From Xanthobacter autotrophicus Py2 (GTDB taxonomy: Bacteria > Pseudomonadota > Alphaproteobacteria > Rhizobiales > Xanthobacteraceae), in the NCBI GenBank assembly GCA_000017645.1, contig CP000781.1:1950001-2014000 (forward strand): DNA of 64,000 bases, given 5' to 3'. Positions 1 through 26,354 of the stretch are shown in pieces. The position numbers were made by a program, and so were the translations under genes. A model generated the notes under the pieces. The model was not told where the DNA came from. It did not search any database and saw only the letters and a list, made by a program, of their open reading frames with translations. Each line of letters begins with the position of its first letter. Positions within the stretch are counted from its first letter, which is position 1.

Positions 1-633
1 GCGCTCCAGCGACAGGACCGGGATCTGGATCAGGTCCTTGCGCGGCAGGAGATAGTTGAAGAAACGCAGCTCGAGGGGGTGCAGCACGTCCTCGGCGTCG
101 TGCAGCACGAGGCCGGCGAACTCGGTGCCGGTCATCTCCTCGTGCTGGAAGATGGCGCGCACCACCGCGTTGAGGCAGTCCGCCTTGTTGGTGGGTCCGG
201 GATTCTTCACCTCCACCCGCACCAGCTGCTTGTAGCGCCGGCGCATGCGCTCCACCTCGGCGATGGTGTCGGGATCGTTGGGATAGGTACCCACGAAGAT
301 CACGTAGCGCCGGTAGTCGAGCACGCTCACCATGTTCTCGATCATGGCCGCGATCACGCCGGATTCGAGCCAGGCGGGAATCATGATGGCGAGCGGCTGC
401 TCGTCCCGCTGGTAGAGGGCAGCAGGGGTGAGCGGGCGGATGAACGGCTCGATGACGAAGCGGCGGTAGATCCGCCGCCCCCAGTACCAGGCATCGACGA
501 ACAGGTCGTCGAGGGAGGAGATCAGGATGATCACCGCCACCACCGCCGCAGCGTATTCCACCACGCGGATGTAATCGGCCAGGAGGAATGGCCAATAAAG
601 GGACAGCCCGTCGAGGGACAGCGCGGTGGACAT
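1..633 (-). CDS. nfrB: NfrB-like c-di-GMP-regulated inner-membrane glycosyltransferase (5' part, runs off left edge)
   Basis: Only the first 211 codons are present. I translated this frame directly. A short N-terminal segment with a hydrophobic helix (about residues 27-40) is followed by the start of a family 2 glycosyltransferase domain. Several blocks match what I know of E. coli NfrB, the phage N4 receptor subunit: PLAIMIPAWLESGVIAAMI, IFVGTYPNDPDT, GPTNKADCLN, LHDAEDVLHPLELR and the Asp-x-Asp-like site HDAED. NfrB is known to polymerise UDP-ManNAc under c-di-GMP control through a C-terminal MshEN domain, which here would lie outside the window. The start lies 19 nt after the bcsB-like stop, so it is the last visible gene of the wecB operon. 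A generic cellulose-synthase-like enzyme is the alternative, but the NfrB blocks are specific. Confidence 0.85.
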   Translation of the reverse strand, partial: MSTALSLDGLSLYWPFLLADYIRVVEYAAAVVAVIILISSLDDLFVDAWYWGRRIYRRFVIEPFIRPLTPAALYQRDEQPLAIMIPAWLESGVIAAMIENMVSVLDYRRYVIFVGTYPNDPDTIAEVERMRRRYKQLVRVEVKNPGPTNKADCLNAVVRAIFQHEEMTGTEFAGLVLHDAEDVLHPLELRFFNYLLPRKDLIQIPVLSLER

Positions 634-652
634 GGCGGTGATCTTTCCGGCG

Positions 653-2947
653 TCAGCTACCGCGACGGCGCACGTAGGAGGCGCGGATCAGCAGCAGGAA
701 GAACAGGGCGGCGGCGCCGATGCCGAGCGGCAGGCCCCAGTCCGACGATTTCTGCCACAGCCGCTGAAGGGTGCCGGCCGGCCCGTCGGTGTCGGCGACC
801 CGCACCGTGCCCGGCGCGGCGCCCGAGGCGCTGAGCTCGGTGAGCGTGCCATCCACCCCCACCAGAGCCACGTCGCCCCGGGAGAGGCGCACCGGCTTCT
901 CCGGCGTCATCGCCACCGGGCCGATGCTCTGCCAGACGATGCCACGGGCGTCGTCCGCGCGCAGGGCCTGCACCAGCGCCACGTTCTTCAGGCCGGAGAT
1001 GTCGAGCAGGCGCGCCTTGTCGTCGGTGCCGACGATGAGCCGGTCACCTTCCACCCGCGCCTTGGGGGTGATGCCCTGCACCGGTACGTCAAGGGCGAGG
1101 AAGGCCCCGGCGGCGCGGAAGGAGGCACCGGGACCGGCCACCTCGAAGCTGCTGGAGCGGGCCGGGACGCCAGCGGCCGCCGCCGCCCGCACCACGCGGG
1201 GCAGGCTCGCCTTGGCGCTGGCGAGATAGGCGTCGGGCACCACCAGGTGACCGCCGGAGGCCATGGCCGCAATCACCCCGAGGAAATCGCCGCCGGGAGC
1301 AGCCCCGCCCAATTCGAAATGGCTGGTGGGCAGCACCGAGACCGGGAACGCCTGCGGCGTCTCGCGGCAGCGGTCGCTCACCGGCTGGCGCTGGAAGGTC
1401 ACGCGCAGCACGTTGCGGGCGGCCAGGGCATAGGGCGGCACGGCGGCGGTGAGATGCTCGGGATGGCCGGTGGCCTCCAGCCGCTTGGCGGCCAGCAGCA
1501 CGTCGTTTAGGAACACCGCCACCACCGGCTCGGAGGTGGAGGCGCCGGGGGCGGCGGCCACGTCGAGATTGAGCCGGCTCGGCAGGGAATGACCGCCGGT
1601 GGCGGCGGCGAGATCAAAGCTCACCACGAAATCGCCGCGGGCCAGCACGTCGAGGTTGCCCTCCGCCGGGCCGAGGCTGGCGAGGGAGACCGCCGACGGC
1701 TTCAGCGGCGCCGCATCCACCGCGCGGATGGTCACCGCGCCGGACGCCAGCGAGGTGCGCCAGAAGCTGTCGAACAGCGCCGTCGCCTTGCCGCCGGCAG
1801 CGCCGCCCACTGCGATCACCGGCCGGCCGGCGAGGGACTGCAGGCTCACCTCATCCGCCGCCACGGTGGCCGCGCCGAGGCTCGCCGCCTTGGTGCGCCA
1901 CTCGGTGAAGGCGGCCGAGGCCGGGCCGAGCCGGGCGCCGAGCGCGTCCAGCGCGCTCTTCATGGAGGTGAGGAGGCCAGCGTCGGCCACCGCCACGTCG
2001 GCGCCCAGCGGCGAGCCCGGCAGCACGAGGAGGGCGCCGAGATCGGCCGCGTCCTTGATGCGATATGTGCCGATACCGACGAAGTTCGAGAACGGTGCCA
2101 CCACGCGCAGCGAAGCCGGAACCTCGAGGCCGGAGAGGTCCACCTCGTCGCCGATGGCGGGCAGGGTCTTCACCACGAGGCGCTTGCCGGCGGCTTCCAG
2201 CGCCAGCCCGAGCCGCCAGGCGGTGTCATAGGTGTCCTTGGTCAGCGTCCCGCCCGCCACCAGCAGGCTGCCCGATCCGGGTATGCCGCTCCAGGCGGTG
2301 GCCAGGTCGCGCACGGCGCCGGCCTCGTAGGAATAGGTGAAGCGGCTTTTCGGGCTGATTTTCAACACGTTGCCGATGCCGCGCTCGTCCGCGCACAGAT
2401 ACTCGCCGATCACCGACGACCATGCGGTGCCGAGGCGCACGAAGCCGGTGGGACGCGGCTTGCCGTCCACGGCGATGGTGGCGGAGGCGCTGCCGCTGTC
2501 GCCTTCCAGACGGCGGGAATAGACCGGGGTGCCGTCCACCGAGAGCACGAGCGTGGTGCGCCCGCCGTCGCCGCGCAGATACTCGCCGTCGAGGGCGATG
2601 GCCGCATCGCTCAGCGGCACGCCGGCCGGCACCGGAAGATAAAGGTCGCGGCGCGCATCCATGCCCTGGAGCACCACCGGCCCGTCGATACCGAGATCGG
2701 ACAGGGTGTAGGAGCGCGTCACCCGCGTGTCCGCCGCCCGCTCCTGAATGGCCGAGACGATCGGGTCCGCCGTCTGCGCCATCGCGGGAGCCGCGCCGAA
2801 CAGGCCGGCCATAAGGCCGGCCGGCAGCAGGGCCGCCGCAAGCCGGACGGCGAGGGTCCGGGAGGCCCCTCTGCCAGTCCTGGCGCGGCCGCGCGCCGGG
2901 AGCACGGCGGGCGGGAGAGCCGGCGCGAAAGCGGGTTGGTGTCTCAT
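653..2947 (-). CDS. BcsB-like periplasmic cellulose-synthase-type regulatory subunit
   Basis: This 764-residue protein has a long N-terminal leader ending in an Ala-rich signal segment (cleavage near residue 57). A large periplasmic part carries the BcsB signature of jelly-roll domains (GIDGPVVLQGMDARRDLYLP, then a region rich in LVLSVDGTPVYSRRL). One C-terminal transmembrane helix ends in basic residues (LGIGAAALFFLLLIRASYV). BcsB proteins sit in the periplasm anchored to the synthase and guide the nascent glucan. No bcsA or bcsC is present: the neighbours are wecB, one nt upstream, and an nfrB-like synthase downstream. I therefore infer that it serves a non-cellulose glycan made by the NfrB-like enzyme. 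Family assignment is firm; the substrate is inference. Confidence 0.85.
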   Translation of the reverse strand: MRHQPAFAPALPPAVLPARGRARTGRGASRTLAVRLAAALLPAGLMAGLFGAAPAMAQTADPIVSAIQERAADTRVTRSYTLSDLGIDGPVVLQGMDARRDLYLPVPAGVPLSDAAIALDGEYLRGDGGRTTLVLSVDGTPVYSRRLEGDSGSASATIAVDGKPRPTGFVRLGTAWSSVIGEYLCADERGIGNVLKISPKSRFTYSYEAGAVRDLATAWSGIPGSGSLLVAGGTLTKDTYDTAWRLGLALEAAGKRLVVKTLPAIGDEVDLSGLEVPASLRVVAPFSNFVGIGTYRIKDAADLGALLVLPGSPLGADVAVADAGLLTSMKSALDALGARLGPASAAFTEWRTKAASLGAATVAADEVSLQSLAGRPVIAVGGAAGGKATALFDSFWRTSLASGAVTIRAVDAAPLKPSAVSLASLGPAEGNLDVLARGDFVVSFDLAAATGGHSLPSRLNLDVAAAPGASTSEPVVAVFLNDVLLAAKRLEATGHPEHLTAAVPPYALAARNVLRVTFQRQPVSDRCRETPQAFPVSVLPTSHFELGGAAPGGDFLGVIAAMASGGHLVVPDAYLASAKASLPRVVRAAAAAGVPARSSSFEVAGPGASFRAAGAFLALDVPVQGITPKARVEGDRLIVGTDDKARLLDISGLKNVALVQALRADDARGIVWQSIGPVAMTPEKPVRLSRGDVALVGVDGTLTELSASGAAPGTVRVADTDGPAGTLQRLWQKSSDWGLPLGIGAAALFFLLLIRASYVRRRGS

Positions 2948-2948
2948 G

Positions 2949-4178
2949 TCAGTCTCTCACGGGCATGGCAGCAAGGCCGGCCGGACGCCGGGGCGCAGGC
3001 GCAGCGGAGGGGAAGGCGGGGGCGGAGAAGGTGGGGGCGGCGGACAGTGGAGCGAATTCATCCACCGGCCGTCCGCAGAGGCAGTCGAGGATGCGGCGAC
3101 AGGCCTGCCCGTCGCCATAAGGATTGATGCGGCCGCTATAGGCGGCATAAGCGTCGGGGTCATCGAGCAGTCGCGTGACGGCGGCGACGATGGCGGCGCG
3201 GGCGGTGCCGACCAGCTCCACCGTACCCGCCTCCACCGCTTCCGGCCGCTCGGTCACCTCGCGCATGACCAGCACCGGCTTGCCCAGCGCCGGCGCCTCC
3301 TCCTGCACGCCGCCGGAATCGGTGAGCACCAGGTGGGCGCGCTGCAGCAGCCGCTGGAACGGCAGGTAATCGAGAGGCGGCACCAGATGGATGTTGGCCC
3401 GGCCGGCAAGTTCCTCTGTCACCGGCCCACGCACATTGGGGTTGAGGTGCACGGGATAGACGATCTCCACGTCGGACCGGCCGGCGATCTGTGCCAGCGC
3501 GGCGCAAATGGAGCGGAAGCCGTCGCCGAAATTCTCACGGCGGTGGCCGGTGACGAGCAGGATGCGCTTGGCGGGATCAAGCGCCGGCAGCGCCCGGTCG
3601 AGGGCGGCCGCGAGGTCCGGGTCGCCATCGATCCGCGCCTGCGTCGCCTGGAGGGCATCGATCACGGTATTGCCGGTGACCACCACCCGGCCGGCGAGCC
3701 GCTCGGCGGCAAGGTTCGCCCCGGCGCCGGCGGTGGGTGCGAACAGAAGGTCGGCGACCAGATCCACCACCCGGCGGTTCATCTCCTCCGGGAAGGGCTG
3801 GGCGAGATCATAGGTGCGCAGGCCCGCTTCCACATGCCCCACCGGGATGCGACGATGGAAGGCGGCCAGCGCCGCCGCCATGGCGGTGGTGGTGTCGCCA
3901 TGGACCAGCACGCGATCGGGCTGGACCTGCGCCAGCACCTGATCAAGGCCGGTGAGCGCGCCGGCGGCAAGGCCGCTGAGCCCCTGGTTGTGGGCCATGA
4001 GGCCGAGGTCGAAATCGGGGCGGATGTCGAACAGGCGCAGCACCGGGTCCAGCATCTCGCGGTGCTGACCGGTGACGCAGACCACGGACACGACCTCAGG
4101 CGCCCCCGCGAGGGTGCGGACCAGCGGCGCCATCTTGATGGCCTCCGGGCGCGTGCCGAAGATCGACAAAATTCTCAA
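2949..4178 (-). CDS. wecB: UDP-N-acetylglucosamine 2-epimerase (non-hydrolysing)
   Basis: This enzyme converts UDP-GlcNAc to UDP-ManNAc in the cytoplasm. Family blocks are clear: RILSIFGTRPEAIKMAPL at the N-terminus, TGQHREMLDPVL, GDTTTAMAAALAAF, GHVEAGLRTYDL, TGHRRENFGDGF, LTDSGGVQEEAPALGKPVL and ERPEAVEAGTVELVG. About 45 Pro/Ala-rich residues extend the C-terminus beyond the usual length. I chose a TTG start at 4178 because it places the canonical N-terminus at residue 2 and leaves room for a promoter whose -35 is at 4225-4230. The frame is also open from a GTG at 4214. The stop is separated from the bcsB-like start by one base (TGA-C-ATG), so the two are translationally coupled. The product is the donor expected for NfrB-type synthases. 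Confidence 0.93.
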   Translation of the reverse strand: MRILSIFGTRPEAIKMAPLVRTLAGAPEVVSVVCVTGQHREMLDPVLRLFDIRPDFDLGLMAHNQGLSGLAAGALTGLDQVLAQVQPDRVLVHGDTTTAMAAALAAFHRRIPVGHVEAGLRTYDLAQPFPEEMNRRVVDLVADLLFAPTAGAGANLAAERLAGRVVVTGNTVIDALQATQARIDGDPDLAAALDRALPALDPAKRILLVTGHRRENFGDGFRSICAALAQIAGRSDVEIVYPVHLNPNVRGPVTEELAGRANIHLVPPLDYLPFQRLLQRAHLVLTDSGGVQEEAPALGKPVLVMREVTERPEAVEAGTVELVGTARAAIVAAVTRLLDDPDAYAAYSGRINPYGDGQACRRILDCLCGRPVDEFAPLSAAPTFSAPAFPSAAPAPRRPAGLAAMPVRD

Positions 4179-4201
4179 GGCGCGTCCCCGGCGATTCGAT
4201 T

Positions 4202-4230
4202 TTGGAAAAAACACGAACCATTGTTGTCAA
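4202..4230 (-). promoter_or_regulatory. Candidate sigma-70 promoter for the wecB operon
   Basis: On the minus strand a consensus TTGACA (4230-4225) is followed after 17 nt by a weak -10-like TTCCAA (4207-4202). Transcription would begin near 4195, just upstream of the TTG start I assigned to wecB and downstream of the alternative GTG. The -10 match is poor, so this is tentative. Confidence 0.35.
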
Positions 4231-4427: not shown

Positions 4428-5225
4428 TTACCGCACCGGCGATGTGCTCGCGCCGGTCCCGATCGCCGCGCGGACCAGAGCCTCAGCCTCGGCACCGCCC
4501 CATTCGGCAGGTCCCGCAAGGTAACCCATCTCGCAGCCGTCACGGTCCACGATGACCGTGGTGGGCAGGCCGAACCCCCGTCCAACCCCGCGCAGGGCCT
4601 GGAAAGTCTTCGTTGCCGGGTCGGCATAGAAGGCAAGGCGCTTCACCCCGATCTCGTCGAGGAAGGCCCGAGGCTTGTCGGGATCGCGGGTGTCGAGATT
4701 GACCGCCACCACCTCGAAATCCGGCCCGCCCAGGCTGCCCTGAAGCCGGTCGAGGTCCGGCATCTCCTTTCGGCAGGGGACGCACCAGGTCGCCCAGAGA
4801 TTGAGCAAAACCACCCGGCCTTTGAAGTCGGCCAGCGTCACCTCCTTGCCATTGGCGCCGGTAAAGGCGAGGGGCGGCAGGCGGCGCGGCTCGGTGGCCG
4901 GGGAGAAGGCGGCAAGGCCGCCCTTGGCCAGCGGCACGAACGCCCGCGCGCGCTCCACGGTGCCCTGGCAGGCGGCATCCGACACCTTGAACGCAGCCGG
5001 CTCCGCGGCCGGCGCGGAGGTGACCTGAGGCGCCTGTGCATTGCCGGGGAGGCGGTTCATCCCGTATAGGGCGAGCGCGCCGGCAACGGCGCCCGCCAGC
5101 GTCGCCAGCGCGACGAGACCGACGGTCCGCACGCCGGAGCCGCGCCGCCCCTTGGGAGGCGTCGTTGCCGGCCCGGTCGCCGTCTCGTCTGTTTCGGTCG
5201 CGCGGGGCTGGTCGGCTTCGGTCAT
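4428..5225 (-). CDS. TlpA-family membrane-anchored thiol:disulfide oxidoreductase
   Basis: An N-terminal cytoplasmic tail is followed by one transmembrane helix ([20 protein letters not shown]). A periplasmic thioredoxin-fold domain carries [20 protein letters not shown] with the redox pair WCVPC, and a cis-Pro region [20 protein letters not shown]. TlpA/ResA proteins reduce periplasmic disulfides, often in cytochrome c or oxidase maturation. The gene is head-to-head with argH. The ATG at 5225 leaves a 16-nt gap; a second in-frame ATG at 5243 would make the start codon overlap that of argH on the other strand. The arrangement of tlpA next to argH and lysA is common in Hyphomicrobiales as far as I know. 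Confidence 0.9.
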
Positions 5226-5241
5226 CACGAGGGGATCCGTC

Positions 5242-6630
5242 ATGAGCAACAAGATGTGGGGCGGGCGCTTTACCTCCGCCCCCGACGCCATCATGGAGGA
5301 GATCAACGCCTCCATCGGCTTCGACCAGCGTCTTTATGCGCAGGACATCGCCGGATCCAAGGCCCACGCAAAGATGCTCGCGGCCCAAGGCATCGTGGCG
5401 GCGCAAGATGCCGACAGGATCGCGGAGGGTCTAGACACGATCCTGTCAGAGATCGAGGCCGGCAATTTCACCTTCAAGCGCGAGCTCGAGGACATCCACA
5501 TGAACGTGGAGAGCCGCCTCGCCGAGCTGATCGGAGCCTCCGCCGGCCGCCTCCACACCGCCCGCTCGCGCAACGACCAGGTGGCCACCGACTTCCGCCT
5601 CTATGTGCGCGACACATTGGACGCCCTCGACGCCCAGCTCGCCGACCTGCAGCGGGCTCTGGCCGAGAAGGCGCTGGCCCACGCCGCCACCGTCATGCCC
5701 GGCTTCACTCATTTGCAGACCGCCCAGCCGGTGACCTTCGGCCACCACCTGATGGCCTATGTGGAGATGGTGGCGCGCGACCGCGGCCGCCTCGCCGATG
5801 CGCGCAAGCGCCTGAACGAGTGCCCGCTGGGCTCGGCGGCGCTGGCCGGCACCTCCTTCCCCATCGACAGGGACGCGACCGCGAAAGCGCTCGGCTTCGA
5901 CCGGCCCACCGCCAATTCGCTGGACGCCGTCTCCGACCGCGACTTCGTCATGGAGACGCTTTCAGCCGCCTCCATCTGCGCGGTGCATCTCTCGCGCTTC
6001 GCCGAGGAGGTGGTGATCTGGACCTCGCCGTCCTTCGCCCTGGTGAAGCTCTCGGACAAGTTCACCACCGGCTCGTCCATCATGCCGCAGAAGCGCAACC
6101 CGGACGCGGCCGAGCTGGTGCGGGCCAAGGCCGGGCGCATCATCGGCGCGCTCACCGGCATCCTGGTGGTGATGAAGGGCCTGCCGCTGGCCTATGCCAA
6201 GGACATGCAGGAGGACAAGGAAGGCGCCTTCGACGCCTTCTCGGCTCTGTCCCTGGTGGTGGCGGCCTCGGCCGGCATGGTGCGCGACATCGTCCCGGAC
6301 GAGAAGCGCATGGAGAAGGCGGCGGGCCAGGGCTATTCCACCGCCACCGACCTTGCCGACTGGCTGGTGCGCGCCCTCAACATCCCGTTCCGGGAGGCCC
6401 ACCACATCACCGGGCGCATCGTCGGGCTCGCCTCCGACCGCGGCATTGCGCTGCACAAGCTGTCCCTCGACGACATGCAGGGGGTGGATGCGCGGATCAC
6501 CCAGGACGTGTTCTCGGTGCTGTCCGTGGTGCGCTCCGTGCGCAGCCGGGTGAGCTATGGCGGCACCGCGCCGACCCGGGTGCGGACCCAGGCCAAGCGC
6601 TGGCTCAAGAAGCTCGGGGTCCCGGCGTGA
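5242..6630 (+). CDS. argH: Argininosuccinate lyase
   Basis: It cleaves argininosuccinate to arginine and fumarate, the last step of arginine synthesis, in the cytoplasm. The 462 residues are the normal length. Family signatures are intact: [11 protein letters not shown] at the N-terminus, [33 protein letters not shown] and the superfamily motif [20 protein letters not shown]. The frame is open upstream, but ATG 5242 has a clear Shine-Dalgarno (GAGGGG at 5229-5234) and gives the canonical MSNKMWGG start. It is followed by an lptM-like gene and lysA, an order I regard as conserved in related bacteria. Confidence 0.97.
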
Positions 6631-8526: not shown

Positions 8527-9858
8527 TCAGCTCGCCAGCCGGCGGTCGGCGATAAAGGCGAGCAACGCCTCTTCGGTCATGGGATGGCCCAGGAAGAAGC
8601 CCTGGACCTCGTCGCAGGAATCGGCCCTGAGAATGGCGAGCTGGCTCTCCGTCTCCACCCCTTCCGCCACCACCTGCATGCCGAGCGCGCGCCCAAGGCC
8701 CAGGATCGCCTGCACGATGGCAAGCGCGCCCTTGGAATTGTCCAGGTCGCCGACAAAGCGCCGATCGATCTTCAGGGCGTCGAACGGGAAGGTCCGCAGA
8801 TAGCCCAGCGATGAATAGCCGGTGCCGAAATCGTCCATGGACAGGCGCACGCCCAGGTTTTTCAGGCCCTCCAGCACCTCAAGCGCCTTCTCGGCATTCT
8901 CGATCAGTACGCTCTCGGTGATTTCGAGCTCAAGCCGCTCCGGCGCAACGCGGGTGCTTTTGAGCACCGCATCCACCGTGTTGACGAGCGCATCATTGCG
9001 GAACTGCACCACCGAGACGTTGACGGAGACGTTCAGCTCCGGCAGGCGGGAGATGGTGTCGCACGCCTTGCGCAGCACCCATTCGCCGATGGGAATGACG
9101 AGGCCGCTCTTCTCGGCGATGGGGACGAACGCGTCGGGGGTCAGCAACCCCAGCTGGGGATGGTCCCAGCGGATCAGGGCCTCCACCCCGAGCAGCTTCA
9201 GCGTCCGCGCGTCGCAGCGCGGCTGGAACAGCAGCACGAACTCGTCGGATACGATGGCCCGCCTGAGGTCGCCTTCCAGCGTCCGCCGTCCGCTCATCTC
9301 CTCGTTCACATCGTCGGCGAAGTAGGAACAGGTGCCGGGACCGTCGGCCTTGGCCTGCTCCAGCGCCAACTCGGCGCAGCGCACGAGACCCTCGGCATCC
9401 TCCGCATCGAGCGGGGCGAGGGCGATGCCCATGTTGACCAGCGGGTAGGCCACCGCGCCGGACGACATGCCGATGGGCGCGTTCAGGGCCGACTGAAGCC
9501 GTCGGGTCAGGCCGTCCACCGCCTTCGCATCCCCGACACCGGTGGCGACGATGATGAAGGTGTCGGCATCCACCCGCGCCACCAGGTCATGGTCGCGCAC
9601 GCACCGGCGGATCCGCCGCGCGGTCTCGGCGAGGATGAGGTCACCCGCGTCCAGGCCGAACATCTCGTTGAAATGGTGGAAATTATCGAGGTCGATGCAG
9701 AAAACGGCCAACATCCGCCGGGTTTCCTGCGGCGAGCTGAGCGCGCCGGCGAGGAACTCGGTCATCAAGAGGCGATTGGGCAGGCTGGTCACCGGGTCGT
9801 GCAGGGCAAGATATTCCGATTTCCAGGGTCCACGCGCTCCATCGTCGGCGTCGCTCAC
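8527..9858 (-). CDS. Degenerate-GGDEF / intact-EAL protein, probable c-di-GMP phosphodiesterase
   Basis: Residues about 15-180 are a diguanylate-cyclase fold (HDPVTSLPNRLL, FCIDLDNFHHFNEMFG), but the signature loop reads RVDADTF instead of GGDEF, so cyclase activity is not expected. Residues about 195-440 are an EAL domain with the metal and catalytic motifs preserved: GVEALIRWDHP, LEITESVLI, MDDFGTGYSSLGYL, ALKIDRRFV and VVAEGVETE. No transmembrane or sensory domain is present, so it is cytosolic. Translation starts at a GTG. It probably hydrolyses c-di-GMP, and the degenerate GGDEF may bind GTP or a partner. It stands alone between lysA and the Pat-type gene, 4 kb from the NfrB-type synthase locus. 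Confidence 0.92.
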   Translation of the reverse strand: MSDADDGARGPWKSEYLALHDPVTSLPNRLLMTEFLAGALSSPQETRRMLAVFCIDLDNFHHFNEMFGLDAGDLILAETARRIRRCVRDHDLVARVDADTFIIVATGVGDAKAVDGLTRRLQSALNAPIGMSSGAVAYPLVNMGIALAPLDAEDAEGLVRCAELALEQAKADGPGTCSYFADDVNEEMSGRRTLEGDLRRAIVSDEFVLLFQPRCDARTLKLLGVEALIRWDHPQLGLLTPDAFVPIAEKSGLVIPIGEWVLRKACDTISRLPELNVSVNVSVVQFRNDALVNTVDAVLKSTRVAPERLELEITESVLIENAEKALEVLEGLKNLGVRLSMDDFGTGYSSLGYLRTFPFDALKIDRRFVGDLDNSKGALAIVQAILGLGRALGMQVVAEGVETESQLAILRADSCDEVQGFFLGHPMTEEALLAFIADRRLAS

Positions 9859-18494: not shown

Positions 18495-21400
18495 TTAATA
18501 GGACAGGAAGGCCCCGGCAAAGATGCCCTCGGCGCGATCGTCCCCCGCCAGCTTGAAGCGATATTGCAGCGTCAGGTCGAGGTAGGAGCGGGGCGCCGTG
18601 TATTCGTCCTCGTTGAACCAGTAGCGCAGGGTCGCACCCGGACCCGCGCCGAGGGCAAACGGCGTGGCATAGCCGGTGTCATAGCCGCCGCCGATGGCGA
18701 GATAAGGCCACAGCACCAGGTGGTCGGAGAGGGCGTCGAGCCGCCAGGCATGGCCGTAGCGCGCCTCGAAGGTGGCCACCGTCTGCGGCGTCATCAGGAA
18801 ATAATTGTAGTCGGCATAGATCTGCCACGCCCGCCAATTGTCCACGTCAACCCGCAGATCGGTGCCCTCGCTCTTGGAATAGGCGGCGCGCAGCAGCACG
18901 TCGTCGCGGGCATACTGGCCCACCGGGAACAGGTACGACACCTCCAGCACCAGGTTCTCGCTCTTGAACGGCTTCCACCGCGCGCCGGCGCCGCCCTGGA
19001 TCGTGTCGATGCCGGTGGGTCCGCCGGCATCGCTGTAGAGCGTGCCGAAGCCGCGCACGAACAGCTCGAAGATGGAGCCGTCGCGATAGCCGATGCCTGG
19101 CGGGCGCCAGTAGATCTCGCCGCCCGCACCGATGGTGTGGTTGGCGCCCGGCGAGGGCGGGGCCAGATAGGAGCCGGGGGCGACGCCCACCGCGCCGTAG
19201 CTCACCGAGGCATAGGCGCCCCAGGTCCGCGACAGCTCCGCCACCTCGCGCCGGAGGCCGAAGAGATATTGCGGATCAAGCTGGAGCTTGCCCTCGCGGG
19301 CCTCGTCGATGGCGGACTTGAAGTAATCCACCGCCTCCGCGTTGTGATAGGTGTGCCGCGCCGCATAGCCGGCATTGATCAGGTTGGTGCCGCGCAATTG
19401 CCAGCGGCTGTTGGCCTCGGAGAAGTATTCGTAGGCGAGATCATCTTCGCCCGCCTGGCTCGCCAGCACCGCGAGGTCCACCGCCTTCATGCCGCGCAGG
19501 GCACCGGAATTGTAGGCGGAGAGGAACAGCTGGCGCGCCTCCTCCTTGCGTCCGAGCTGGGACAAGACGCCGATGCGCGCCGTGAGCATGGCCATGCGCT
19601 CCTGCCCGCTGCGCGCGCCGGCGGCGGCCAGGGTGAAGGCTTCAAGCGCCCCTTCCTTGTCGTCGAGGGCGAGCGCGGCGAAGCCGACCCGCGCCTGCAC
19701 TTCGTAGCTCGCCTCGCCCCGGTAGGGCGCGAGGGCGTCAAGGGCGATGGCCGGCTGCTTGGCCGAAAGGCCGGCGTCGGCAAGGCTCAGACGCACCTGC
19801 CGCACCTGTCCGGCCGGCAGGCGGCCGGAGGCGAGGGCGGCGCGGAAATCCTGGATGGCGCCGGTGAAATCCCGCGCCCGCATGCGCAGATTGCCCCGCT
19901 GCACCAGCAGCGTCACATCGCGCGGGTTGCCGGCAAGCAGGCGGTTCGCCACCGCCTCGGCCTCCTGGTAGCGGCCCGCCGAGGTGAGGGCGTTGAGCAG
20001 CAGCACCTGATAGGACGTATTGCCCGGCTCGGCGTCCACGGCGCGGCGCGCCTCGGCGATGGCGGTTGAATAGTCGCGCCTGCCAAAGGCGGCATAGGCG
20101 GCGCTGGCGGCGGCATAGCCCGGCGCGGCCGGGTTCAGGCCGGCCCCCGCCACCTGCATGGACTGGCCGGCGAACACCGAGCAGATGATGCCGTAGAACG
20201 TGGGCTGGCACAGCACCACCGGCTGCACCAGGGCCGGACGCGGGCCGCCCGGCGCCTTCACCAGTGCCTCCGCCTGCTTGTGTAGCGGCACGATTTCCTT
20301 GTTCTTGCCTGCGTCGAGGGGCTCCAGAAGCTTCAGCGCTTCGGCCGCCTGCCCGGCGGCGAGCGCCGCATTGGCGGCGATGAGGCGGAAATTGAGGTCT
20401 TCGAGATCGGTCAGCACCGGACTGGCGAGCGCCGTGTCGAATTCCTTGACCGCCTCGTCGCGCTGGCCGAGCTTCTGCACCAGATAGCCGCGCAGCACGT
20501 GGGGCAGCGGCTCGCGGGGATTGTCGGCGACCGCGCCGGCGGCGGCGGCCTCGGCTTCCTTGAGCTGACCTGCCGCCATCAGGGCGTTGATGAGCACGAT
20601 CCGGAACACCAGCGCGTCCGGCGCCCGCTCCACCGCCTGCCGCGCGAGGGTGACGGCGGCCGGCGCCTTGCCGCGCGCCAGCTCCTTGATGGCCTGTTCC
20701 GCCAGCGGTTCGGCGAGGCGCTTCTCGTTGGCGGCGCGCAGGGCGAGCAGGGTCGGATCGGTGTCGCCCTGGGCGATGGCGTCGCGGATGGCGACGTCCA
20801 GATCCTTGAACTTCCTGGCGCGCTCCAGCGTGTCCACGAGCAGGCGGCGCCAGGTGGGATTGCCGGGATTGTCCTTCAGCGCCTCGCGGATGCGGGTCTC
20901 GGCCAACGCATCGTTGCCGTCGCGATAGGCGTTGAAGGCTTCGAGCGCGGCATCGTAGCCGGGCGTGTCGGAGACCCCGCCGCCGGGGGGCGTGGTGGCG
21001 GGCACGAGGCTGCACGAGGGACCGTAGGGCGTGTCGACACACTTCTGGTAGGGCACGGGCAGGCTCTGGAACGCCTTGTCCGGCACCAGATTCGGGTTCT
21101 TCTCCTGGGCCCGGGCCACACGCAGGCGCCCGGCGATGGCGGCATCCTGCGGCTGCACCTGCTCCAGCAGCTTGATGGCGCGCTGGGGGTGGCCGGCGGC
21201 GATGGCGGCATCGGCCATCACCAGGCGCACGTCGCGCGCGGTGGCCCCGCTCAGCACCTCGTCCTTGAGCGCGGTGTCGAAATCCTGCTCGGCCTCGGCG
21301 ATGCGGCCGAGCCGCTCGCGCAGATAGCCGCGCAGGGTGCGGGGCAGGAAGGATTGGGGATCCACCTCCACCGCCTCGCCGGCGGCCTTCTCCGCCGCCT

Positions 21401-21968
21401 CGATCTGGCCGTCGGCGATGAGCGCGTAGACCAGCAGCATGCGGTAGCTGAGATCGTCCGGAACCAGCGCGATGGCCTTCTTCGCTGCCTCCACCGCCGC
21501 CTTCGGATTGGAGGCCTCCAGCGCCTTGTTGGCGGCGAGCGAGGGCGCCTGCGCCAAAATCTTGCTCTGCGCCCGCACTCGCGCCACCAGCGTCTGGTCG
21601 GTGATGCCGGCGGCAATGGCCTGGTTGCCGGCGGCCACCGCCTCGGCGGTCTTGCCCTGGGCCTCCAGCGCATCCATCAGCAGCAGCCACAGGCGCGGCA
21701 CGTCGGGCCGCAGCTTCAGGGCCTCGCGGGCATAGGTGACCGTCTCCGAATATTTCTTGTCGCGCTGGGCGGCATAGGCCCGGTCGGCCGCGGCCCAGGC
21801 CGCGCCGGTCAGCTCGGGCGGCTCGGCGCGGGCCGGCATCGCCCCGGCGAGCAAGCCCACCGCCACCGAGGTGGACAGCATCAGGCCGAAGGCCGTGCGC
21901 TTGAGGCCCCTCGGGCGACGGGGCGACGGGGACGGAAGAGCCGTGCGGAGAGGATTCGCGGTGGTCAT
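18495..21968 (-). CDS. nfrA: NfrA-like outer-membrane polysaccharide export protein with TPR repeats
   Basis: This 1157-residue protein has an N-terminal signal peptide (hydrophobic core around LMLSTSVAVGLLAGAMPARA). A long run of TPR-like helical repeats (residues about 55-900) includes three clearly repeated modules of about 270 residues. The C-terminal portion of about 220 residues is aromatic-rich and beta-type (GAGARWKPFKSENLVLEVSY, WRAWQIYADYNYF, ending in GAFLSY), resembling the C-terminal domain of E. coli NfrA. NfrA is the outer-membrane partner of NfrB, thought to export its glycan, as BcsC does for cellulose. It lies immediately downstream of the algF-algI-algJ genes, not next to the nfrB-like gene 18 kb away. 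Confidence 0.82.
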   Translation of the reverse strand: MTTANPLRTALPSPSPRRPRGLKRTAFGLMLSTSVAVGLLAGAMPARAEPPELTGAAWAAADRAYAAQRDKKYSETVTYAREALKLRPDVPRLWLLLMDALEAQGKTAEAVAAGNQAIAAGITDQTLVARVRAQSKILAQAPSLAANKALEASNPKAAVEAAKKAIALVPDDLSYRMLLVYALIADGQIEAAEKAAGEAVEVDPQSFLPRTLRGYLRERLGRIAEAEQDFDTALKDEVLSGATARDVRLVMADAAIAAGHPQRAIKLLEQVQPQDAAIAGRLRVARAQEKNPNLVPDKAFQSLPVPYQKCVDTPYGPSCSLVPATTPPGGGVSDTPGYDAALEAFNAYRDGNDALAETRIREALKDNPGNPTWRRLLVDTLERARKFKDLDVAIRDAIAQGDTDPTLLALRAANEKRLAEPLAEQAIKELARGKAPAAVTLARQAVERAPDALVFRIVLINALMAAGQLKEAEAAAAGAVADNPREPLPHVLRGYLVQKLGQRDEAVKEFDTALASPVLTDLEDLNFRLIAANAALAAGQAAEALKLLEPLDAGKNKEIVPLHKQAEALVKAPGGPRPALVQPVVLCQPTFYGIICSVFAGQSMQVAGAGLNPAAPGYAAASAAYAAFGRRDYSTAIAEARRAVDAEPGNTSYQVLLLNALTSAGRYQEAEAVANRLLAGNPRDVTLLVQRGNLRMRARDFTGAIQDFRAALASGRLPAGQVRQVRLSLADAGLSAKQPAIALDALAPYRGEASYEVQARVGFAALALDDKEGALEAFTLAAAGARSGQERMAMLTARIGVLSQLGRKEEARQLFLSAYNSGALRGMKAVDLAVLASQAGEDDLAYEYFSEANSRWQLRGTNLINAGYAARHTYHNAEAVDYFKSAIDEAREGKLQLDPQYLFGLRREVAELSRTWGAYASVSYGAVGVAPGSYLAPPSPGANHTIGAGGEIYWRPPGIGYRDGSIFELFVRGFGTLYSDAGGPTGIDTIQGGAGARWKPFKSENLVLEVSYLFPVGQYARDDVLLRAAYSKSEGTDLRVDVDNWRAWQIYADYNYFLMTPQTVATFEARYGHAWRLDALSDHLVLWPYLAIGGGYDTGYATPFALGAGPGATLRYWFNEDEYTAPRSYLDLTLQYRFKLAGDDRAEGIFAGAFLSY

Positions 21969-22148
21969 GGCGCCACCCTCTCAGGGATTATTTAAGCCAT
22001 GGTTAACCTTAAGAAATACGGTGAATGGAATACTTCGATAAATACTCTGTTTACCATATCGTCCGGCGCAAACCCGCAGGCGCGCACAAGAAACGCGCCA
22101 TCTCCTTCACCGTGGAGGCGCGCCGGACCTCTCTTCTTAACTTGCTGT

Positions 22149-23153
22149 TTACTTCCCGATGGCCGCACGCATCCGCTCGCGCCAGGTCTCACCGCTCATG
22201 AGGGAGGGCGCATCCCACTGGTCGGCGGCGTGTGGGCCGCTGTGGAACGGCCCCTCGTTGAACTGCCACACCAGCACCTGCGGCGGCGCCTTGGCGAAGT
22301 CCGGCGTGCCCACGGCCTGGAGGAAGGTGACCCATGGCCCCACGTTGCCGGGGTTCCAGGTGAGAGAGACCGGCCGGTCGAGCCCATTGGAGAGCTTCTG
22401 CGGGAAGCCGAGATAGGGCTGCACGAAGCTGTTGCCCACCACATGGACGGGCGCCGGGCCGCCATCGAGAAGGGACGCCTTGGCGGCGGGCGGGGTACGC
22501 ACGGTGTAGAGGTCGGGGCCCACCTGCTTCTGCTGGTCGGGCGGCAGGAAGCGCTCGGCAAGGTCGCCCAGATGGCGCTGGGTGACCCACTCCCCCAGCT
22601 TGTCGCCGCCCGGCGAGCCCGCGAGCTTGGGCACTTTGGTCTTGATGAAGGCGGCCACGGCGTCCGCCGCCGCCTCGGACGACCAGGCGGTCCAGTGGTA
22701 GTCGGCCCGGTAGAAGCTGGTCTGCCGTCCGGTCTCCACCGATTTCAATGCGGGCCGCAAGTCCAGCGTGTCGATGCCGGCCTTCTTCAGCTCATCGAGG
22801 ATGAAGTCGTACTGCCCCACCACGTCCGCCGAGAGGCTGGTGCCCTCGGGCAGGCGCGCCGCAGAGAAGCGCGCCTTCAGCGGCACCACGAGCGTGACGA
22901 GGGTGACGCCCCTCGCGGCAAGTGCCGCCTTGGCGTCCTTGATCAGCGCCACATTGGCGGTGATGCCGGCCCGGTCCAGGACGGTGAGGCTCTCCCAGCC
23001 GGGAAATAGCCAGCCGTCCTTGCCGATGATGAGGGTGGTGCCGCCGGACGGGCCCTGCGCAGCCGCCGGAGCCGTCATCCCCGCGACGGCGAGCGCCGAG
23101 GCGAGGGCGACGCCGGCCAAAAGCCGGCGGCGGGTGAGGGCGTGACGCGTCAT
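22149..23153 (-). CDS. AlgJ/AlgX-like periplasmic O-acetyltransferase, Tat-exported
   Basis: This 334-residue SGNH-like protein starts with a twin-arginine signal (TRRRLLAGVALASALAVAG). The AlgJ/AlgX catalytic features are present: RADYHWTAWSS with Asp151 and His153, and VVGNSFVQPY with the likely nucleophile Ser242. It lacks the C-terminal carbohydrate-binding domain of AlgX. Start ATG 23153 overlaps the stop of the previous gene by 4 nt (ATGA), so it is translationally coupled. It likely transfers acetyl groups to an exported polysaccharide. A second AlgJ-like protein is encoded just upstream. Confidence 0.88.
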   Translation of the reverse strand: MTRHALTRRRLLAGVALASALAVAGMTAPAAAQGPSGGTTLIIGKDGWLFPGWESLTVLDRAGITANVALIKDAKAALAARGVTLVTLVVPLKARFSAARLPEGTSLSADVVGQYDFILDELKKAGIDTLDLRPALKSVETGRQTSFYRADYHWTAWSSEAAADAVAAFIKTKVPKLAGSPGGDKLGEWVTQRHLGDLAERFLPPDQQKQVGPDLYTVRTPPAAKASLLDGGPAPVHVVGNSFVQPYLGFPQKLSNGLDRPVSLTWNPGNVGPWVTFLQAVGTPDFAKAPPQVLVWQFNEGPFHSGPHAADQWDAPSLMSGETWRERMRAAIGK

Positions 23154-24232
23154 GTCGGATCTCCCAGAAATCGGCGTTCGGTCTCCGTCAGCGGGCGGGT
23201 GAGCGCACGCATGGGAAACTCCCACACGATGAGCCGTGTCTGCGCGAGACTTTCGGGCTCATCCATCAAAAACGCGAGAAGCTGGCCGGCAAAGCCGCTG
23301 CCGTCGGCGCTCTTCTGCGCCACCTCATAGCCGGACGCCGCCTGCAGATAGTCCAGGAAGCCGGAATTGCGCGAGAAGGACGAGCCCGCCAGCACCACCG
23401 CGGGGGCGGGCACGTCATCGAGCAGGCCGCCGGTGCGGGCGATGGCGACGGACACGTCCGGCACCTGGTCAGGCTCGGGACCGGACCAGGGCCAGGAGCG
23501 CTCCAGCCCGGCAAGGCGCATGAGGTCGCCCACGCGCGCATGCGGCGCGCTTTCCTTCAGCGTCACCTTCTGGGTCCCGGCGCCGATCTTGCGCGCCACA
23601 TGCTCGGCCACACGCGTGGCGGCAAGGCGCGCGCCCAGAGGGCTCCAATGGGTGTCGGTGCGCAGGAAACCGTCCGCGCCGGGAAAGCCCGGCGCGATCT
23701 CCACCTGGTCGAGGCCGAGGCCACGGCTGCCCTCCCACCACGCGGCGGAACGCTTGGCCGCCAGATCCGCCACCGGCAGGCCGCAAAGCCTGTCTGCCGC
23801 CAGCAAGGCCTTGTCGGGCACCGGCAGCACCACGAGGGCAATGTTCCGCGCGGCGAGATGATCGCGGATCTTCGCGGCGAGCCGGATGCGCTCGGCCACA
23901 GGGGCCTCCCGCTCGCGCGGCTCGACGATCTCGTCGGCATAAAACAGCCAGCCCGGGCACCCGGCGCGCACCAGCGGCCCGGCATCGCCGAGAAGGCGAT
24001 AGGCAAGGCCCGAAGCCATGTCGTCGAGCGCCGTCAGCTTGGGCAAGGCGGCCACCACCTGCTTGTCCAGCACGGCGGTGAAGCGGCCTTCGAGGAAGTC
24101 GGCCGGGCCGGCAACGGCCGCAAGCGCCTCCCGGCTTTCGGAGCCCGAGAGCCGCGCCGCGACGAAGCCGAGACCGGCGAGCATCAGCGCCAGGAAGGCC
24201 AGGGTGGCGAGGGTGCGGGCGAGGCGCGTCAT
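23150..24232 (-). CDS. algJ: AlgJ-like membrane-anchored O-acetyltransferase
   Basis: This 360-residue protein has an N-terminal membrane anchor or signal (LATLAFLALMLAGLGFVAA). An SGNH-like catalytic domain follows, with FLRTDTHWSPLGARLAA (Asp193, His195) and VVLAGSSFSRNSGFLDYL (likely nucleophile Ser285). In alginate acetylation AlgJ works with the MBOAT protein AlgI, which passes acetyl groups across the membrane. It starts 6 nt after algI and overlaps the next algJ-like gene. The genome context lacks alginate synthesis genes within the window, so the substrate is probably a different polymer. Confidence 0.88.
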   Translation of the reverse strand: MTRLARTLATLAFLALMLAGLGFVAARLSGSESREALAAVAGPADFLEGRFTAVLDKQVVAALPKLTALDDMASGLAYRLLGDAGPLVRAGCPGWLFYADEIVEPREREAPVAERIRLAAKIRDHLAARNIALVVLPVPDKALLAADRLCGLPVADLAAKRSAAWWEGSRGLGLDQVEIAPGFPGADGFLRTDTHWSPLGARLAATRVAEHVARKIGAGTQKVTLKESAPHARVGDLMRLAGLERSWPWSGPEPDQVPDVSVAIARTGGLLDDVPAPAVVLAGSSFSRNSGFLDYLQAASGYEVAQKSADGSGFAGQLLAFLMDEPESLAQTRLIVWEFPMRALTRPLTETERRFLGDPT

Positions 24233-24238
24233 GGCACG

Positions 24239-25639
24239 TCAGAACTGGAAATAGAGGAAGGGCACGACGATCCGCCCCTGCAGCACGAACACCGCGAACA
24301 GGAACAAGGGCAGCGCCGTCCACGCCCGCAGCGCATGGCCCGGATTGGGTGCGGAAGGGTCGATGCGCATCAGCTTGGGCAGATAGATGAGGCCGATGCC
24401 GAGGGCGAGGGTGACCAGCTCCACCGGCCGGAGCGCCGCCCCCATGGCGGGCGAAAGCGAAAGCCCGTGGGCGCCGGCGAGGCCGGAGAAGATACGCCCC
24501 GCCTCGTCCCAGCTCGCGGCGCGGAACAGCGCCCAGCCGACCATGACGAAGGCGAGGGTGAGCACATGGCCAAGAAGCGCGCCTCCTGGCAGCGCACCGG
24601 TGCCGGGCAGGCGCGCGGCCTTCCACACCCGCCCCACCATCAGGCCGAAGCCGTGCCACAGGCCCCAGATGAGGAAGGTCCAGCTCGCTCCGTGCCACAG
24701 GCCGCCGAGACCCATGGTGACCAGCAGGTTCATGGAGACGCGGCCGGTGGATCCCCGGTTGCCGCCGAGCGGAATGTAAAGATAGTCGCGCAGCCAGCTG
24801 GACAGGGAGATGTGCCAGCGCCGCCAGAACTCGGAAAGCGAAATGGCGAGATAGGGATTGTCGAAATTCTCCGGGAATTTCAGCCCCACCATCAGCCCGA
24901 GGCCGATGGCCATGGCGCTGTAGCCGGAAAAATCGAAATAGAGCTGCAGCGTATAGCCTGCCACCGCCAAGAGCACGTCCGCCGTGGTCGGCTCGGCGAG
25001 GGCGTAGCCCGCGTCCACCATGGGGGCGAGCGTGTCGGCGATGAGCACCTTCTGGGCGAAGCCGAGCATGAAGCGCTCCACCGCGAACATGAACTCGGCG
25101 CGGTGAAAGGTGCGCGCCTTCAGCCGCTGCGCCACCCATTCGTAGCGCACCACGGGGCCGGCCACGAGATGGCCGAACATGGACTGGTAGGTGGCATAGT
25201 TCACGAACGAGGGCTCGGCCGCGACCGTGCCGCGGAACACGTCGGTGGAATAGGAGATGGCGCCGAACACGAAGAAGCTGAGGCCGATGGGCAAAAGTAC
25301 GTCCTGCCAGCCCCAGACCGAGGCCCCGAGCGCCCCGGCCGAATGCACGAACATGTTGGCGTATTTGAACCAGACGAGGGAGGCCAGCGGCCACGCGATC
25401 CCCACCATCAGCGCCCGCCGCCGTCCGGCGCCGTCCGTCCGCGCGATCCACAGGCCCGTGGCCCAGGACCACACGGCGATGGAGACGATGAGCGGCAGGA
25501 AGTCCGCCCGCCACCACGCATAGAACAGCCAGGAGAAGGCGAGGATGGCAAGGTTTCGCGCCGCCCCCGGCGTCAGCGCGTAGACGATGAGGAACACCGG
25601 CAGGAACAGGAACAGGAAGCTGTCGGAGGCGAAGACCAT
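24239..25639 (-). CDS. algI: AlgI-like MBOAT acetyl-transfer protein
   Basis: This 466-residue polytopic inner-membrane protein belongs to the MBOAT family. It has the AlgI start (MVFASDSFLFLFLPVFLIVY), DFSGYSAMAIGLGLMVG, FWRRWHISLSSWLRDYLYIP and the catalytic-His motif GLGGLWHGASWTF (His316). AlgI moves acetyl groups from a cytoplasmic donor across the membrane to AlgJ/AlgX-type transferases. It lies 13 nt after algF and 6 nt before algJ, in a co-directional operon. Confidence 0.95.
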   Translation of the reverse strand: MVFASDSFLFLFLPVFLIVYALTPGAARNLAILAFSWLFYAWWRADFLPLIVSIAVWSWATGLWIARTDGAGRRRALMVGIAWPLASLVWFKYANMFVHSAGALGASVWGWQDVLLPIGLSFFVFGAISYSTDVFRGTVAAEPSFVNYATYQSMFGHLVAGPVVRYEWVAQRLKARTFHRAEFMFAVERFMLGFAQKVLIADTLAPMVDAGYALAEPTTADVLLAVAGYTLQLYFDFSGYSAMAIGLGLMVGLKFPENFDNPYLAISLSEFWRRWHISLSSWLRDYLYIPLGGNRGSTGRVSMNLLVTMGLGGLWHGASWTFLIWGLWHGFGLMVGRVWKAARLPGTGALPGGALLGHVLTLAFVMVGWALFRAASWDEAGRIFSGLAGAHGLSLSPAMGAALRPVELVTLALGIGLIYLPKLMRIDPSAPNPGHALRAWTALPLFLFAVFVLQGRIVVPFLYFQF

Positions 25640-25652
25640 GGACCCCGCCCGG

Positions 25653-26354
25653 CTAGTTGGCGGCGCCGCGATAGGGCTCCGTCTCGTCGCGCTGGCCGGT
25701 GAGCACCGGGCCGGAGGCGCCCGGCAGCAGGAACAGGCTGTAATGGTCCCCGGCCTTCAGGGGCGGCAGGGTGAGGGGGCCGGAGGCCGCCGCCCCGCAG
25801 GTCGCCGCAAGGATCGCCTCGATGGGATTGATGGCGCGCTGGCGGGTGGCGTTGGGCGCCACCGCCTCGAATACGGTGGGGCCGCCATCGGCCACGGTCA
25901 CCGCGCCGTCGCAGCCGGGCACGAGATTGTAGAATCGCAGCTGGGCCTTCAGGTCGTTGCGGCCCTCGGTGGAATCGGCGACGACCACAGCCGGGCCGCC
26001 CGCAGGCACCACCACGGTGGAGAAGGCGTCCGCCGCCGGCACGATCTCCCCGGCCACCGGCCGGCCATCGATGCTGAGGGCGAGCGGAGCCCCACCCTTC
26101 ACCACGCGATAGATCGTGGCCGTGTCGTCCTGTGGCACCGGTGCCGCAGGACCCGATCCGAAGGCGATGGGCGCGCCGCTGCGGGACAGGTCGATCACCC
26201 GCACATAGGCCGAGCCCGCCGGCGGCTTGGGTGCATAGAGCCGGGTCAGCTCCTGCGCCTGTGCGCCGAGGCCTCCCAGGGCGAGCGCAAGCGCGCCGAG
26301 GCCAACGGCGATCCGGCTTACAGCGGCACGCGTGACACGATGGAAAACAGGCAT
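25653..26354 (-). CDS. algF: AlgF-like periplasmic O-acetylation accessory protein
   Basis: This 233-residue protein has a signal peptide (core VGLGALALALGGLGAQAQ). Its mature part resembles AlgF: it opens with LYAPKPPAGSAYVRVIDLS and ends in GDHYSLFLLPGASGP. AlgF is required for alginate O-acetylation and is thought to mediate acetyl transfer or complex contacts between AlgJ and AlgX. It is the first gene of the algF-algI-algJ-algJ-nfrA series. Confidence 0.85.
   Translation of the reverse strand: MPVFHRVTRAAVSRIAVGLGALALALGGLGAQAQELTRLYAPKPPAGSAYVRVIDLSRSGAPIAFGSGPAAPVPQDDTATIYRVVKGGAPLALSIDGRPVAGEIVPAADAFSTVVVPAGGPAVVVADSTEGRNDLKAQLRFYNLVPGCDGAVTVADGGPTVFEAVAPNATRQRAINPIEAILAATCGAAASGPLTLPPLKAGDHYSLFLLPGASGPVLTGQRDETEPYRGAAN

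Follow-up and report, generated by a model that had tools for sequence, protein, structure and literature searches.

The window, a stretch of 64,000 nucleotides from Xanthobacter autotrophicus Py2 (G000:C1:1950001-2014000; the genome searched comprises 5.6 Mb on two contigs), carries at its left end wecB, a bcsB-like gene and nfrB. All three genes lie on the minus strand with gaps of 1 nt (wecB/bcsB-like) and 19 nt (bcsB-like/nfrB). The reading-frame coordinates confirmed this order and spacing as given by the initial annotation, which had interpreted the run as suggesting a ManNAc-based exopolysaccharide machine that mixes cellulose-synthase and NfrB parts and was not known to be described in alphaproteobacteria. 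nfrB crosses the left edge into the adjoining stretch L003, where a DUF4434/YbcH-like gene follows (Table 1). In a second block at 18495-26354, the acetylation genes are located directly upstream of nfrA on the same strand; these genes, inside the same window, had been missed in the first reading. nfrA shares its strand with wecB, which follows 14280 nt downstream of the nfrA end; the listed frames of the two algX-like genes have an overlap of 76 nt. All nine genes of both blocks have full-length reading frames (GC3 was computed for those inside the window).

Table 1. Genes of the two blocks with their coordinates (window positions unless L003, the stretch left of the window, is named).
Feature	Coordinates	Strand	Size and model match
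wecB	2949-4214	minus	421 aa; TIGR00236, 458 bits (cut-off 210)
bcsB-like	653-2947	minus	764 aa; PF03170, 33 bits (cut-off 21), weak by sequence
nfrB, first 211 codons in window	633 down to 1, crosses left edge	minus	NF012033, 1146 bits (cut-off 537)
nfrB, full gene	L003:13492-15633		713 aa; 1508 bases beyond the edge
DUF4434/YbcH-like	L003:12570-13436, outside window		288 aa; 55 nt after nfrB
nfrA	18495-21968	minus	1157 aa; TPR repeats; NfrA_C PF13283, 264-269 bits
algX-like SGNH O-acetyltransferase, first	22149-23225	minus	PF16822, 254 bits
algX-like SGNH O-acetyltransferase, second	23150-24232	minus	PF16822, 259 bits
AlgI-like MBOAT membrane O-acyltransferase	24239-25639	minus	PF03062, 96 bits
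algF-like periplasmic acetylation protein	25653-26354	minus	PF11182, 56 bits (cut-off 34)

A gene for a TlpA-like thioredoxin (4428-5315, minus strand; NF047696, 280 bits) precedes wecB at a distance of 213 nt and may be co-transcribed with it. The spacer between the blocks also holds a GGDEF-EAL gene (8527-9858, minus strand, 443 aa), 4.3 kb upstream of wecB. Its GGDEF signature looks degenerate (DADTF) while the EAL motif is present, and its product is probably a c-di-GMP phosphodiesterase; the gene is a candidate for a regulator dedicated to the system. Left of the window and past the end of the nfrB run, a ricin-type beta-trefoil lectin protein of 243 aa is encoded (L003:10004-10735, minus strand).

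WecB is of the non-hydrolysing UDP-GlcNAc 2-epimerase kind, with the PDB relatives 3dzc and 1vgv at E<1e-128, and is expected to yield UDP-ManNAc. It was the sole match in a search of the whole genome; the sugar-donor enzyme that the initial annotation had placed in one run with the bcsB-like gene and nfrB is hence the only WecB of this genome.

NfrB passed the NCBIfam model NF012033 but stayed below NF008411, the equivalog model of E. coli NfrB (643.6 bits against a cut-off of 1170). Since the sister model was passed and NF008411 was not, the protein is of the Nfr kind but not of the E. coli subtype; both proteins share 44% identity over 84% of the length. The GT2 motifs are LHDAED at 177, TED at 275 and QKARW at 338 (DxD-type, TED and QxxRW, respectively). 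Beyond the left edge, where a c-di-GMP domain had been suspected, the synthase does end in an MshEN domain: its C-terminus scored over the cut-offs of the MshEN-related c-di-GMP motif NF053729 (76.7 bits, in two stretches) and of Pfam MshEN PF05157 (34 bits), contains the motifs RLGELL and PLGR and has MshEN relatives in the PDB as well. For E. coli NfrB, the available parts of two studies report that the variants D169A, D267A and W330A did not complement phage N4 plating (PMC8669469) and that, within MshEN, G491L abolished N4 killing and G519S partly abolished it, most other substitutions being without effect (PMC8669472), and L490A had a moderate effect (PMC8669469). Matched by motif, D169, D267 and W330 can be read as D179, D277 and W342 of Xanthobacter NfrB, and G491 and G519 as G504 and G533. 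The columns matching the E. coli active-site residues were invariant in 16 aligned relatives, and so were both glycines among these sequences.

The BcsB-like protein has a hydrophobic (signal) segment at its N-terminus, a multi-domain body of BcsB type and, at residues 741-759, a hydrophobic C-terminal anchor. Its closest relative (97%, alignment A1) carries the source label Xanthobacter viscosus. PDB sequence searches with the BcsB-like and the DUF4434-like proteins found no relative apart from two chance-level rows, and the folds of both were therefore predicted. The model of the BcsB-like protein showed the BcsB fold, in line with the cellulose-type periplasmic partner that had been proposed beside NfrB. 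The Foldseek TM-scores to BcsB, however, remained below 0.5 by query length and the VIA rmsd was 5.9 Å; both count against the explanation preferred below, as does the weak sequence match, and the predicted domain arrangement either differs from that of BcsB or is uncertain. The YbcH-like protein has an N-terminal hydrophobic segment and a predicted TIM-barrel fold. It stayed below the cut-offs of PRK09936 and PF14488 (DUF4434), but was matched by hhalign to the product of the third gene of an E. coli nfr locus (96.1%, E 2.9e-9). We take this third gene to be ybcH from its position after nfrA and from its description in PMC8669469.

Given that related records annotate the BcsB-like protein as BcsB or cellulose synthase, it might serve a cellulose or another beta-glucan synthase and stand beside nfrB by inheritance alone. 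A GT2 gene at another genome position with weak resemblance to CelA would fit this, but its match of 113 bits was the best of the whole genome and far below the cut-off of 699 for cellulose synthase (TIGR03030). The domain search with full-length NfrB returned no PilZ row, and the only PF03170 matches of the genome are those of the BcsB-like gene. A continuation of the run into a BcsA-type PilZ domain and cellulose genes past the edge, named by the initial annotation as the outcome that would speak against it, was hence not observed, and a cellulose operon was ruled out. Together with the adjacency to nfrB and the distribution of this BcsB described next, these results make the beta-glucan role very improbable.

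An NfrB-alignment scan of named genomes yielded at least 479 confirmed relatives, of which the best 80 loci, the near end of the family, were inspected. In 78 of these 80, nfrB had bcsB as its immediate upstream neighbour on the same strand, so that the wecB-bcsB-nfrB arrangement is not due to chance; both loci without bcsB belong to Collimonas. In the same best 80 loci, nfrA and a DUF4434-like gene were each present in 70, algF in 19 and MBOAT in 17. Seven of the ten loci without nfrA are from Xanthobacter and three are cut within 0.9 kb after nfrB.

wecB was found in 72 of the best 80 loci, and in seven of the remaining eight the contig leaves less than 2.4 kb of sequence upstream of nfrB; only L082 has room for the gene and none was seen. 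This frequency, and the position of the genome's single wecB directly before bcsB-nfrB, argue against a polymer that is not based on ManNAc, for which the WecB product would be modified further (e.g. oxidised or mixed with GlcNAc) or used elsewhere. We consider such a polymer unlikely, bearing in mind that ManNAc was proposed in the literature from genetics and not from measured composition, according to the available parts of PMC8669472, PMC8669469 and PMC12507263. Neither a structure nor an assay was found for a glycan of this NfrB branch, which counts against the explanation preferred below.

In wider samples, an NfrB-type match (E <= 1e-60) was obtained in 28 of 398 genomes of the phylum and in 10 of 397 genomes of the order, the window's genome included in both cases. 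The co-occurrence with BcsB across the order, raised in the initial annotation, held for full-length NfrB (4/4 with >1100 bits) but not for shorter proteins (0/6 with <=505 bits). Within the family, matches to the BcsB-like protein were present in 16 of 100 genomes, twelve of them strong (E <= 4e-99) and four weak. The short NfrB-like glycosyltransferases (L104-L117 and L145-L149; frames of about 460-530 aa) are mostly alphaproteobacterial, and their matches end before the MshEN region; some adjoin wecB, and none has BcsB in the stretch examined. At L094 and L095, the NfrB match lacks its C-terminal part and ends near profile position 547 of 707, although bcsB, nfrA and acetylation genes accompany it.

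The presence of BcsB was then compared with NfrB phylogeny for 112 loci (L007-L086 and L091-L122). BcsB was nearby in 85 and not in 27, a BcsB-less locus being one with none detected in the flanks examined (about 7-10 kb per side unless the contig ended earlier). The NfrB tree had 77 rows after 36 BcsB-positive near-duplicates were dropped and the window was added; it was built by a quick method with SH-aLRT only, has several long branches and was midpoint-rooted for drawing. The BcsB label changed twice on this tree, compared to 22.6 changes for shuffled labels, and none of 500 shuffles was as low. The direction of these changes depends on the root; if it lies outside the BcsB branch, they read as one gain of BcsB and one loss in Collimonas. 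Eight E. coli-type NfrB rows formed a separate BcsB-less group (100, starred), and alphaproteobacterial rows were scattered over several places. BcsB is thus the usual partner in this NfrB branch, as judged from the tree and the 78 of 80 loci, and the idea of an ad hoc hybrid of cellulose synthase and NfrB had to be abandoned. When the BcsB-like profile was searched against 14 of the 27 BcsB-less cases (12 genomes and two plasmid records), only one was positive, and the match was on another contig. The two Collimonas loci (L065 and L068) have wecB-nfrB-nfrA-DUF4434 without bcsB; their NfrB groups inside the BcsB branch, which is an apparent natural loss of bcsB. At L121 (Nitratireductor sp. 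OM-1), the bcsB-like region comprises two overlapping annotated genes with matches in two frames, possibly a frameshift or sequencing error.

Mirror-tree distances were correlated for ten gene pairs over the 29 loci in which each of the five genes reached 70% coverage. NfrB-BcsB gave the best correlation (Pearson 0.974, and 0.878 after removing WecB), followed by BcsB-NfrA (0.929 and 0.796, respectively), all correlations being inflated by shared descent. This strong co-divergence speaks against a system in which polymer synthesis and export need only NfrB and NfrA, as in E. coli, with BcsB as an accessory (for chain length, stability or as acetylation scaffold). So does an NfrB/WecB-containing locus of Acinetobacter, in which deletion of the BcsB homologue pgrD is reported to abolish phage adsorption (PMC12507263). 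The lack of BcsB in the E. coli-type NfrB group and in Collimonas would agree with the accessory role, which we regard as improbable for Xanthobacter. Because E. coli NfrB has no adjacent BcsB and Collimonas lacks this BcsB, the protein need not be essential everywhere.

A missing exporter was suspected as nfrA does not adjoin the nfrB run, but this was rejected by the PF13283 match at 18510-19025, which was the single one in the whole genome (269 bits). The NfrA protein, the probable outer-membrane export channel, reached 42 bits with NF007302, the model of E. coli NfrA (cut-off 1223), and 16 bits with NF008520, the model of BcsC (cut-off 858). In two genomes of genus g14 from the same family (G013 and G057; L125 and L126), all genes form one run, wecB-bcsB-nfrB-algF-MBOAT-algX-algX-nfrA, in which no DUF4434-like gene was detected. 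A further genome (G001, L140) has bcsB-nfrB-algF-MBOAT-algX-algX followed by a partial nfrA where the contig ends, and no wecB was detected on the fetched stretch. At L127-L130, nfrA precedes wecB-bcsB-nfrB at a distance of about 1 kb; acetylation genes were not detected in these stretches. In Xanthobacter, about 15 kb separate bcsB and nfrA in the window's genome, G041 and G094; the blocks are 63 kb apart on opposite strands in G073 and on different contigs in X. agilis (G498). nfrA was present in all 15 Xanthobacteraceae entries, which had been picked for holding the BcsB-like gene and represent 13 distinct genomes, as two pairs are identical in coordinates. Because of the joined run in the g14 genomes, the nearby nfrA elsewhere and the presence of NfrA in 15/15 entries, we take both window blocks to be one system that is split in Xanthobacter.

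The separation of nfrA from nfrB counts against the explanation preferred below and could instead mark the locus as a decaying remnant, given the 14 kb in the window and the 63 kb and opposite strand in G073. With full-length frames for all nine genes, nfrA in every Xanthobacter genome searched and the acetylation block in all four whose nfrA region was examined, decay can practically be dismissed. A case against strict pairing was observed on another contig of G001 (L141, G001:C4), where a second wecB-bcsB pair has no nfrB in 15 kb around it. The next downstream frame looks like an IS transposase, and a YbcH-like frame on the other strand crosses the contig start.

The locus is probably best explained by a BcsB-containing exopolysaccharide machine of the Nfr (N4 glycan receptor) type, encoded in two gene blocks in Xanthobacter. 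This explanation was chosen because the active-site motifs are invariant, MshEN and the predicted BcsB fold are present and the sole WecB directly precedes bcsB; because the genome has NfrA but neither a CelA over cut-off nor another BcsB, and g14 has a single run; and because of the bcsB-nfrB adjacency among the best 80 of at least 479 relatives, the best co-divergence and the Acinetobacter deletion phenotype. Counted against it, besides the points above, are the L141 pair without nfrB, the absence of BcsB beside E. coli NfrB and in Collimonas, the inflation of the mirror-tree correlations and the lack of effect of most MshEN substitutions examined in E. coli. The machine is probably switched by c-di-GMP and likely makes and exports an acetylated cell-surface sugar polymer. 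WecB would convert UDP-GlcNAc to UDP-ManNAc, and NfrB, as a processive inner-membrane GT2 enzyme, would polymerise this donor once c-di-GMP binds to MshEN. The BcsB-like protein, presumably held beside NfrB by its C-terminal helix, would take the chain in the periplasm and pass it to the TPR porin NfrA for export. O-acetylation of the chain may be the task of the AlgI-, AlgX- and AlgF-like proteins, and its binding or trimming that of the YbcH-like TIM-barrel protein.

The pairing of NfrB and BcsB is already in print and genetically supported, and the Xanthobacter machine is of a kind seen in a few other bacteria. Of the initial interpretation, NfrB with MshEN, the BcsB fold and WecB in the same run were retained, but the novelty of the pairing was not, as it is described for Achromobacter xylosoxidans (Sellner 2021, PMC8669472) and Acinetobacter (PMC12507263). 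According to the available part of the former source, nfrA, nfrB and wecB of A. xylosoxidans are clustered with a BcsB homologue and periplasmic O-acetyltransferases. The Xanthobacter system has these components too; they are described as one cluster for A. xylosoxidans, whereas Xanthobacter has two blocks and a YbcH-like gene ending the nfrB run. The PGR locus of Acinetobacter baumannii is alike by description with PgrD (BcsB), PgrC (NfrB), PgrF (WecB) and the porin PgrG, and its PgrE, similar to the PgaB C-terminus, resembles the Xanthobacter TIM-barrel protein (PMC12507263); Xanthobacter holds this PGR-type set of BcsB, NfrB and WecB homologues, porin and PgaB-C-like protein together. It differs in that PGR has a degenerate diguanylate-cyclase-like PgrA, with none in either Xanthobacter block (the GGDEF-EAL gene lies between them), and in that no acetylation genes are named in the available description of PGR. 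NfrB homologues were reported as occasional in alphaproteobacteria and linked to wecB, and an alginate-type acetyltransferase cluster was reported for Simplicispira (both in the accessible part of Junkermeier and Hengge 2021, PMC8669469); the main text of that paper has no mention of BcsB. The split locus and the family-level regularity of BcsB with NfrB are useful additions. Neither the pairing in Xanthobacter nor BcsB as the mark of one NfrB lineage was found in the literature, searched mainly in open-access PMC, and no title on Xanthobacter slime or exopolysaccharide was on topic.

The BcsA-BcsB cellulose synthase likewise combines a GT2 synthase carrying a c-di-GMP-type domain with a C-terminally anchored partner of BcsB fold, but uses PilZ and the porin BcsC, while Xanthobacter has MshEN, the donor enzyme WecB and the porin NfrA. 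It is an evenly balanced proposal that MshEN-gated NfrB synthases acquired a BcsB-type guide a single time, after which it spread across the alpha-, beta- and gammaproteobacteria. Such synthases would form a separate c-di-GMP-gated class in which an often O-acetylated ManNAc polymer leaves NfrB, crosses a (possibly oligomeric) BcsB ring and reaches NfrA, with BcsB as a general periplasmic chain-guide module that is not cellulose-specific and with E. coli NfrB in the BcsB-less branch. If the explanation preferred above is right, BcsB, which is among the best-studied components of cellulose export, works with a different synthase, sugar and c-di-GMP switch in a system found in all three classes. 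The lineages with and without BcsB permit a direct comparison of what BcsB contributes to polymer export. The machine also has a bearing on phage host range, since phage N4 and an Acinetobacter phage use related machines as their receptor route. At L122, a 93.6 kb plasmid of Paraburkholderia dioscoreae, the system with acetylation genes is found near two integrase genes, and such plasmid carriage is a possible route of spread.

The E. coli nfrBA-ybcH (NGR) system shares NfrB with MshEN, the NfrA porin, a YbcH-type third protein and the use of WecB (PMC8669469 and PMC8669472, in the parts available). The E. coli locus examined (L118), whose NfrB is among the eight BcsB-less rows, has neither BcsB nor acetylation genes, in contrast to Xanthobacter with both, and E. 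coli WecB is encoded in the wec operon instead of the nfrB run. L118 stems from a 4.9 Mb E. coli record labelled as plasmid (NZ_CP134663.1), and its nfrB is interrupted. A broken nfrB is also reported for some E. coli strains in the available part of PMC8669472.
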